DNA of 64,000 bases from Haloarcula salinisoli (lineage in GTDB: Archaea > Halobacteriota > Halobacteria > Halobacteriales > Haloarculaceae): the NCBI RefSeq assembly GCF_019599405.1, contig NZ_RKLQ01000002.1:1245677-1309676 (forward strand), read 5' to 3'. Positions 21,230-59,307 of the stretch are shown piece by piece. Positions within the stretch are counted from its first letter, which is position 1, and each line of letters opens with the position of its first letter. The notes below the pieces were generated by a model. That model was given only the letters and a program-made list of their open reading frames with translations. It had not been told where the DNA came from and searched no databases. The position numbers and the translations under genes were made by a program.

Positions 21230-21359
21230 GCCACCGTCTTGTGTGTGGGTGCCATTGAAGCTCCCGGTTCTAGAAACTGAATCAGGTTCTGGAATCGCTG
21301 CTCCCACCGTATGCCAAACTACACTCGGTAACAGCGACGCGACCGTTTCTTCATACACC

Positions 21360-21638
21360 CAGAAAGCCCCGGCGAGCTACACTCGGGAGGCTCGCTGTCG
21401 TCCGAAAGGCGCGCAGCGCCTTTCGTGATCACGAAAATCTTCGATTTTCGAACGACGGGCCTCGCTCACTACGTTCGCTGTGGTCCTTATGATCTGAAAA
21501 TCGCCACCGGCGATTTTCATCATCGCGAGGGAACGAAGTTCCCTCGGAGATCGCGAATCTTCGATTCGCTCACTCCCGCAAGAGCTCCGCTCTTGCGAGG
21601 ACGTCGCCTGCCGTCGTGTAGCTCGCCGCCCCTTTCAG
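21360..21638. mobile_element. MITE-like element with 23-bp imperfect inverted ends and six internal hairpins
   Basis: The left end 21360-21382 and the reverse complement of 21616-21638 match at 19 of 23 positions. Mismatches are mainly a CCC/GGG block just inside the AAAG. The same ends, with the same CCC/GGG block, delimit the element at 59071-59185. The left 40 bp (AGAAAGCCCCGGCG, then CTCGGG, then CTCGCTGT) are shared by both copies. Between the ends lie six small hairpins with 3-nt loops: 21403-21425, 21432-21450, 21495-21519, 21526-21546, 21554-21568, 21577-21597. No transposase is encoded. It could be a non-autonomous mobile element or a structured RNA. Confidence 0.6.
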
Positions 21639-21680
21639 TCCCACCCCGTGGACCAGCCGACCGGGCGGGACTGAAAGGGG
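21629..21680. repeat. 14-bp inverted repeat at the right end of the element
   Basis: CCCCTTTCAGTCCC (21629-21642) and its exact complement GGGACTGAAAGGGG (21667-21680) are separated by 24 nt. The left arm overlaps the right end of the element at 21360-21638, so this could be a second, partial copy of the end in inverted orientation. Confidence 0.7.
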
Positions 21681-21739
21681 CCGGACGCGTGGCGGCTTCT
21701 TCGCGCGGCACCGCCGCGTGAATGGTCCGCGGGAGTCGT

Positions 21740-22006
21740 CCGAAAATCTCCGATTTTCGGGAGTGAGCGAATCGGAGATTCGCGATCTGTGCAAGACCTT
21801 CGGTCTTGCAGCATCACGAGAGAGCTCCGCTCTCTCGGACGACTTCGCTCCCTCGCTATCGCCGCCACGTTAGACGAGGTGGGCACAGCCGACCTCGCGC
21901 TCAGGGAGCGAGACGATGTAAGCACGCGAGCGAAGCGAGCGCGCGCAGCGAGTTGCAGCCAGAGAGGGACCGGAGGTCCCTCAAGCAGTCGGCGCGAAGC
22001 GCCGAC
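21740..22006. repeat. Array of short perfect hairpins with 3-nt loops
   Basis: Further hairpins of the same design follow the element: 21740-21760 (CCGAAAATC, loop TCC), 21767-21783 (GCGAATC, loop GGA), 21790-21810 (TGCAAGACC, loop TTC), 21817-21837 (CGAGAGAGC, loop TCC), 21964-21982 (GAGGGACC, loop GGA), 21988-22006 (GTCGGCGC, loop GAA). Stems are 7-9 bp and perfect; loops are always three bases, nearly always TTC, GAA, TCC or GGA. Stem sequences differ, so this is not a simple tandem repeat. No coding frame is convincing here. It lies 70 bp upstream of msrA. Confidence 0.75.
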
Positions 22007-48479: not shown

Positions 48480-48756
48480 AAATCGTGTGCCTGTAGTCGG
48501 CGCTCTCGCTACGCCTCGCGGGTCGCTGCGCGCTCGCGGCTCCGCCGCTCACTATCGAGGCGCAAAGGGCCTCGCTCTCCCCGCTCGCGTTTTCCGAGGA
48601 ATCTCGCTTCGGTCGGTTCCTCGCTACTGCTCTCCGGCTCCCGCTTGGTCGCCGGTTCGCTTTCGAGGTCGGCGCTGCGCGCCGACCTCGCTACTGCTCC
48701 ACGGCTCGTTTCACTCGCCGTTCCGCTTCGAGGTCGCTCACTCCGTTCGGGCTCTC
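48480..48756. repeat. GC-rich hairpin region downstream of carB
   Basis: 277 bp flanking the carB stop. It holds a perfect 12-bp stem with a 3-nt TGC loop (48664-48690, CGAGGTCGGCGC arm), GCGGC-TCC-GCCGC (48536-48548), and CGAGGAA/TTCCTCG arms (48595-48601, 48617-48623). Phrases such as CGCTACTGCTC and CTCGCTACGC recur. The 3-nt-loop design matches the array at 21403-22006, although the inverted-repeat ends seen at 21360 and 59071 are absent. No coding frame is convincing. Confidence 0.6.
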
Positions 48757-59070: not shown

Positions 59071-59185
59071 AGCCAGAAAGCCCCGGCGGGCTACGCTCGG
59101 GGGACTCGCTGTGGTCCTCACTCGCTTCGCTCGTTGCGGTCCTTGTGTCGTCCGCCTTCGCGTAGCCCACCGCCCCTTTCTGGCT
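59071..59185. mobile_element. MITE-like element with ~26-bp inverted ends (second copy)
   Basis: The left end 59071-59096 (AGCCAGAAAG, three mismatched bases, then CGG.GGGCTACGC) matches the reverse complement of 59160-59185 at 22 of 26 positions. The CCC/GGG mismatch block is the same as at 21360-21638. The interior has CTCACTCGCTTCGCTCGTTGCGGTCC, related to the other copy, but lacks its hairpins, so this copy is shorter (115 bp). It lies upstream of the DUF6149-like gene. Confidence 0.65.
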
Positions 59186-59307
59186 GTTCACGCCCCTGTT
59201 GGCTGTCACTACTAACGGGTCGTTCTGACTGTCTATATCCACAGTTCCGCACGCTCTCACTATCGCTAGCGAGCCTTTCAAGACGCTCGAATCCTAACGC
59301 TCGGGCG
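59186..59307. other. Promoter region of the DUF6149-like gene
   Basis: 122 bp without a gene. Contains moderately AT-rich TGTCTATATCCACAG near 59230-59244 that could be a TATA region. Nothing else supported. Confidence 0.35.

Follow-up and report, generated by a model that had tools for sequence, protein, structure and literature searches.

What kind of sequence contains a dozen different hairpins, each perfectly paired and each closed by a loop of exactly three bases? This question is raised by a stretch of the Haloarcula salinisoli genome (the window, 64,000 nucleotides in length), in which twelve such hairpins, with stems of 7-11 bp, lie between positions 21403 and 22006. All twelve were recovered where they had been described from the sequence alone (Table 1). 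Ten of the loops belong, as reported, to the TTC/GAA/TCC/GGA set (TTC three times, GAA twice, TCC three times and GGA twice), the other two being GCA and ACC. Chance and base composition are ruled out as the source of the array by dinucleotide shuffles of the region, which gave a mean of 0.096 hairpins and a maximum of one in 1000 runs, compared with 12 observed. A tandem-repeat finder reports nothing in the region, in agreement with the earlier statement that the array is not a simple tandem repeat. It is unlikely that the array is an assembly artefact, because the same architecture recurs in the complete chromosome of Haloarcula rara and in many independent genomes.

The sequence-only reading regarded the array as free-standing and without a known feature type. 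This view has to be abandoned, as the array corresponds to the enlarged arms of a single copy of a non-coding element that is dispersed in the Halobacteria. The proposed continuation of the array at 48536-48690 holds only in part: a perfect 12-bp hairpin with a TGC loop (48664-48690) and the palindrome GCGGC-TCC-GCCGC are indeed present, but the covariance model of the family (R1, see below) has no match there. The TGC hairpin is housed in an intergenic stretch of the CTCGCT type (48490-48750) that is rich in palindromes.

Architecture of the dispersed element

A genome search with the array region returned 117 matches at approximately 40 places that share one plan, consisting of a terminal 15-mer (CAGCCAGAAAGCCCC), an arm with a 12-bp closing stem, then a palindromic centre (CCCCTTTCAGTCCC...GGGACTGAAAGGGG), another arm and the 15-mer in inverted orientation. 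Each half is a stem-loop module of about 110 bp with the arrangement 5'-GGGYGGGACTGAAAGGGGC–stem–loops–stem'–GGGGCTTTC. Haloarcula copies mostly comprise two modules in inverted orientation; across genera the single module is the usual form (90 of the 108 sampled). Covariance model R1, which was built from 56 modules, mostly from genera other than Haloarcula, detects 105 modules in this Haloarcula genome.

Forty copies in the same genome are bounded by inverted 15-mers. These are mostly 133-419 bp long, the shortest being 73 bp, and the distance from end to centre is nearly constant in many of them, at about 100 bp. Triloop hairpins of at least 8 bp are absent from 18 of the 40, and the longer copies hold hairpins within their arms. 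A spacing of 45 bp is found both in the centre of the element and in tandem end repeats. For example, the terminal 15-mer is repeated outward with an exact 45-bp period five times in L041 (2998-3192) and six times in L042 (3035-3274), and analogues of this tandem repeat with 53-57 bp are seen in other genera (L083, L089). The terminal repeats sit within a further variable stretch, which often ends at CTAG.

The preference for loops of three bases extends to 41 elements of this genome, which contain 67 perfect triloop hairpins with stems of at least 8 bp, a density of 5.66 per kb inside the elements versus 0.17 per kb outside. Perfect hairpins with stems of this length and loops of 2, 4, 6, 8 or 10 bases are entirely lacking in the same 41 elements, and we read the counts at loops of 5, 7 and 9 as the same triloop stems with their inner pairs opened. 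The closing pair is C-G in 66 of the 67, and 49 triloops have the sequence GNA on one strand. Triloops of the C-GNA-G type have an unusually high stability in DNA.

Table 1. Coordinates of the element copy, its hairpins and a second module in the window
Feature	Position	Strand	Basis and remarks
Whole element copy	21356..22006		Architecture common to ~40 places in the genome; right terminal repeat lost, right end approximate
Left terminal 15-mer CACCCAGAAAGCCCC (1 mismatch to CAGCCAGAAAGCCCC)	21356..21370	+	Motif scan; profile of 159 terminal repeats
Left base stem, 5' side GGCGAGCTACAC	21371..21382	+	Sequence reading; stem covaries in all arms
Left base stem, 3' side GTGTAGCTCGCC	21616..21627	+	Sequence reading; stem covaries in all arms
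Left module, folded strand minus, begins GGGTGGGACTGAAAGGGGC at 21646	21362..21646	-	Model R1 (21570-21646, E 2e-4; 21362-21434, E 0.14); alignment split by large hairpin inserts
Central palindrome, left half CCCCTTTCAGTCCC	21629..21642	+	Motif scan; 19-mer in 146/292 Halobacteria genomes
Central palindrome, right half GGGACTGAAAGGGG	21667..21680	+	Motif scan
Right module, decayed	21663..21953	+	Model R1 (21663-21700, E 7e-4; 21913-21953, E 0.012); keeps 5' motif (21663-21681) and conserved inner loop motif (21913-21953), 3' end gone; intact orthologue in G002
Hairpin 1, 10 bp, loop GCA	21403..21425		
Hairpin 2, 8 bp, loop TTC	21432..21450		
Hairpin 3, 11 bp, loop ACC	21495..21519		
Hairpin 4, 9 bp, loop GAA	21526..21546		
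Hairpin 5, 7 bp, loop TTC	21553..21569		
Hairpin 6, 9 bp, loop TCC	21577..21597		
Hairpin 7, 9 bp, loop TCC	21740..21760		
Hairpin 8, 7 bp, loop GGA	21767..21783		
Hairpin 9, 9 bp, loop TTC	21790..21810		
Hairpin 10, 9 bp, loop TCC (GGA in 95%-identical paralogue)	21817..21837		
Hairpin 11, 8 bp, loop GGA	21964..21982		
Hairpin 12, 8 bp, loop GAA	21988..22006		
Second module, single, intact, same family	59076..59190	-	Model R1, 99 bits, E 8e-19

A covarying fold with strand asymmetry

The arms of the element maintain pairing in stems of many different sequences. In total, 130 arms contain 104 distinct 12-bp base stems, and pairing in these stems is 91% within a copy versus about 50% when partners are swapped between copies. 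Analysis of 56 modules with RNAalifold identified 26 pairs, 23 of which show double-sided changes. Paired cells account for 93.0%, compared with 67.4% after shuffling, and 338 cells are doubly changed, compared with 105 in shuffled and 52-89 in slid structures; none of 500 shuffles reached the observed value in either case (the cells in these covariation counts, as in the wobble counts that follow, are sequences and not independent events). On the GGGACTGAAAGGGG strand, G-T exceeds A-C by 71:10 in other genera (p 2e-12); the ratio is 11:5 in Haloarcula itself, which is non-significant. The fold as a whole has a ratio of 61:21, and modules known from the model alone have one of 8:1. Symmetry between the strands would be expected from a constraint on the duplex only or from a palindrome of purely mutational origin, and it therefore appears that a single strand of GGGACTGAAAGGGG polarity folds, RNA being most likely and single-stranded DNA possible. 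In the inner helices and the base stem, however, an apparent tolerance of G-T could also result from strand-biased mutation (deamination).

Read from the alignment, CGA facing GAG forms an apparent tandem G-A step. The module also has four conserved G-tracts (GGGYGGG...GGGG...GGGG). Conservation of these tracts is largely a product of the way in which modules were selected, but they are also retained in 16 of 16 model-found modules from genome G027 (L240-L255). It is conceivable that the four tracts form a G-quadruplex in a potassium-rich cell. The covariation and the strand-specific excess of G-T argue for the earlier suggestion of an encoded structured RNA in the case of the underlying module. 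A known RNA family was rejected as the identity of the element, since Rfam 15 gave no matches at the gathering score over the element or over five module-bearing plasmid loci, and the core motifs of the element were not found in the literature searched. The module offers a covarying RNA-like fold.

Distribution in the Halobacteria

The central 19-mer is present as an exact match in 146 of 292 Halobacteria genomes, representing 50 of 77 genera, and a reversed control 19-mer has no hits in the same 292 genomes. When a named genome collection was searched, all of the 19-mer matches, among the matches listed, were haloarchaeal. Model R1 matches six of the seven Halobacteria genomes in a sample of the phylum and none of the 53 genomes from outside the Halobacteria. 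Genome G027, which lacks the exact 19-mer, yields 58 matches to the covariance model. Modules in this genome (L240-L255) are preceded by a further conserved region of about 100 bp (CACGCGCGAGGGAGTCG...CGACGAGGCTGGGGAGG) and followed by repeats of TGGGGCTTCGG. The element has not been catalogued hitherto; the exact motif alone detects it in half of the 292 haloarchaeal genomes and the covariance model adds one genome without the motif, providing annotators with a route to recognition of the module. It is possible that some of the unusual palindromic sequence between haloarchaeal genes derives from this element.

Haloarchaeal genomes contain as many as roughly one hundred copies. The number of copies per genome is patchy between close relatives, ranging from 0 to more than 50, and some relatives are without any exact 15-mer. 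A viral origin was rejected after searches of viral contigs and phages gave no matches. The element is also found on plasmids. Several plasmid loci (L221-L224 and L226) possess a single module located approximately 460-620 bp upstream of a conserved gene encoding an OB-fold (RPA-like) protein, often with an adjacent gene encoding an HNH_repeat endonuclease, and the module ends a conserved structured non-coding stretch. The RPA-like gene was rejected as a driver of the element, as copy-rich genomes have no full-length version of it.

Turnover at orthologous sites

Flanking sequences were traced for 13 copies in four relatives. At several sites the flanks are contiguous without the element in G002, G008, G004 or G023, and the gap at element-free sites reaches past the 15-mers. 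The flanks of the window copy are contiguous in G008 and G010, where the compared stretches carry none of the motifs; in the sister species G002 the element at the same site is intact and bears two triloop hairpins, versus 12 in the window copy. The "empty" sites, which lack clean junctions, could have arisen by loss.

CTAG is an uncommon sequence in this genome and is over-represented at a distance of 35-54 bp beyond the terminal 15-mers. In two orthologous pairs of G000 and G002 (sites E1 and E13), the sequences remain highly similar as far as the CTAG at either end, and only the conserved motifs align well between the two CTAGs. A check for target-site duplication found CTAG at the boundaries of replaced sequence, with no clean empty site containing a single CTAG. 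At the orthologous sites L001/L042 and L010/L075, the sequences of the two Haloarcula species are similar outside two CTAGs and unalignable between them, which recalls the deletion-coupled insertions of Haloquadratum (PMC3119063).

Optional triloop hairpins and inversion of their loops

The leaf hairpins are optional, being absent from 67 of 95 Haloarcula arms. They are almost free of mismatches (among 9-bp leaf hairpins, 53 are perfect versus 3 with one internal mismatch) and show no clear strand asymmetry. Where homologous Haloarcula hairpins differ at one stem pair, the change is double-sided and preserves pairing in 74 cases, compared with 26 in which pairing is broken.

Loops can also be compared between copies. 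The window copy is identical to a paralogue (C1:456974-457155) at 173 of 182 positions (95%). Two exact triloop inversions, TCC to or from GGA and ACC to or from GGT, make up six of the nine mismatched positions, the stems beside the loops being unchanged. A TCC/GGA inversion is also seen in a second pair, with 98.6% identical context; these inversions represent few independent pairs, with one genome per species compared. Of the comparisons in contexts of at least 93% identity, 35 show the same loop and 37 show different loops, some pairs being counted both ways. Among diverged pairs, the two loops are reverse complements of each other in 19 of the 39 cases in which three-base loops differ. 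This was rejected as an overall excess of inversion, as we estimate that about one third would be expected by chance given that the loops are mostly GNA or TNC; we rely on the near-identical pairs because this bias explains most of the class-switched loops in diverged ones.

Template switching in RNA genes leaves a described footprint of perfect stems maintained by double-sided changes and of inverted loops beside an unchanged stem (PMC8794818). The changes in the present hairpins correspond to this footprint, suggesting a similar event. The templated inversion during replication that had been proposed for the array is accordingly supported for the small hairpins by the inversions in near-identical copies and the perfect stems. 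Template switching of this kind is known from phylogenies of rRNA genes (PMC8794818), whereas here there are serial, optional insertions of hairpins in a dispersed repeat. With so many paralogous hairpins, this system could allow a direct measurement in prokaryotes of template-switch mutation, with its perfect stems and inverted loops.

Relationship to known repeat families

ERIC, BOX and Correia elements are, like the present element, short, non-coding, intergenic and palindromic, with many dispersed copies and no transposase of their own; stable folded transcripts are predicted and, as in BOX, the internal units are modular (PMC10969869). In contrast to these families, the present element is confined to the Halobacteria, has two inverted modules around a palindrome and optional perfect triloop hairpins, and has terminal repeats embedded in additional variable sequence that frequently runs to a CTAG. 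As in miniature inverted-repeat elements, short non-coding dispersed copies have inverted terminal repeats and are present or absent at orthologous sites. Membership of the ERIC/BOX/Correia group is provisional, because neither a target duplication nor a parent transposon was found (the transposase families examined being Y1 and TnpB).

Two repeat types from haloarchaea offer a closer comparison. The PATEs of Haloquadratum are similar to the ends of IS605-type elements and are devoid of inverted terminal repeats, and the SMRs of the same genus have inverted repeats and homogeneous copies and insert into PATEs (PMC3119063). The present element is similar to both in being a transposase-free haloarchaeal palindromic repeat with core deletions, heterogeneous ends and sites that differ in sequence among relatives (PMC3119063). 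Unlike PATEs, it has inverted 15-mers at both ends, and it falls outside their definition because of these inverted terminal repeats and because there is no consistent association with IS605. An IS605/PATE origin was rejected, as paired motifs lie beside only one of the 13 TnpB/TnpA loci surveyed in this genome, where they belong to a complete element in the vicinity. Dispersed hairpins and inverted pairs are also features of REP/BIME sequences with their RAYT transposases (PMC2817692). REPs are 20-40 bp long with a GTAG or CGTC foot (PMC3733652), whereas the present module is about 110 nt long with other motifs. The locus of the single Y1_Tnp gene in this genome contains no motif of the element.

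Possible origin and function

We consider it likely that this is a palindromic mobile element, non-autonomous and similar in kind to ERIC/BOX, that folds as a single strand and has had its arms expanded by template-switched hairpins. For such an element to spread or act, a single strand, most likely a transcript (GGGYGGGACUGAAAGGGGC...GGGGCUUUC), would have to fold; transcription and a mobilising enzyme are both postulated parts of this proposal. Small perfect C-NNN-G hairpins would be inserted optionally in the arms, where putative template switching at hairpins during DNA copying would keep the two sides complementary and flip the loop. More tentatively, the module may be a new structured RNA, class-wide in the Halobacteria and characterised by the four G-tracts and apparent tandem G-A, with selfish or regulatory spread via RNA or single-stranded DNA and with arms that record template switching by which perfect triloop hairpins are built and flipped.

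Alternatively, the module might be a non-coding or cis-regulatory RNA of the host that has been multiplied, so that copy number would track host use and the hairpins would be neutral expansion segments. The covarying fold, with conserved unpaired motifs that include the apparent tandem G-A step, and the strand asymmetry of wobble are consistent with this, as is the finding that 39 of 62 single modules have a downstream gene in the same direction. However, this bias in orientation is weak, and we rejected it as a rule for the modules; inverted pairs leave one module antisense, copy number varies from 0 to more than 50 among close relatives and the element is missing or replaced at orthologous sites, all of which make a host RNA unlikely. 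A purely mutational palindrome, in which template switching or quasi-palindrome correction maintains inverted repeats in DNA with no selected fold, is more doubtful still. It fits the triloop inversions and the leaf hairpins, which are diverse yet overwhelmingly perfect and without clear strand asymmetry, but does not account for the excess of wobble pairs on one strand of single modules, for the fixed core spacing or for the unpaired motifs conserved across genera.

Highly improbable, in our view, is that the inverted 15-mers and 30-bp spacers are DNA sites for a host protein involved in nucleoid organisation, recombination or segregation. The invariance of the 15-mers, the spacing of 45 bp shared by the centre and the tandem end repeats, and the enrichment of CTAG at a set distance are compatible with such sites, but covarying stems and strand-specific wobble are not required by binding sites alone, and the exact 15-mer is missing from some relatives.

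A separate observation concerns the copy at L005 (7530-7892). Its left and right flanks are widely separated and oppositely oriented in both G002 and G008, and this element may therefore sit at a rearrangement breakpoint.
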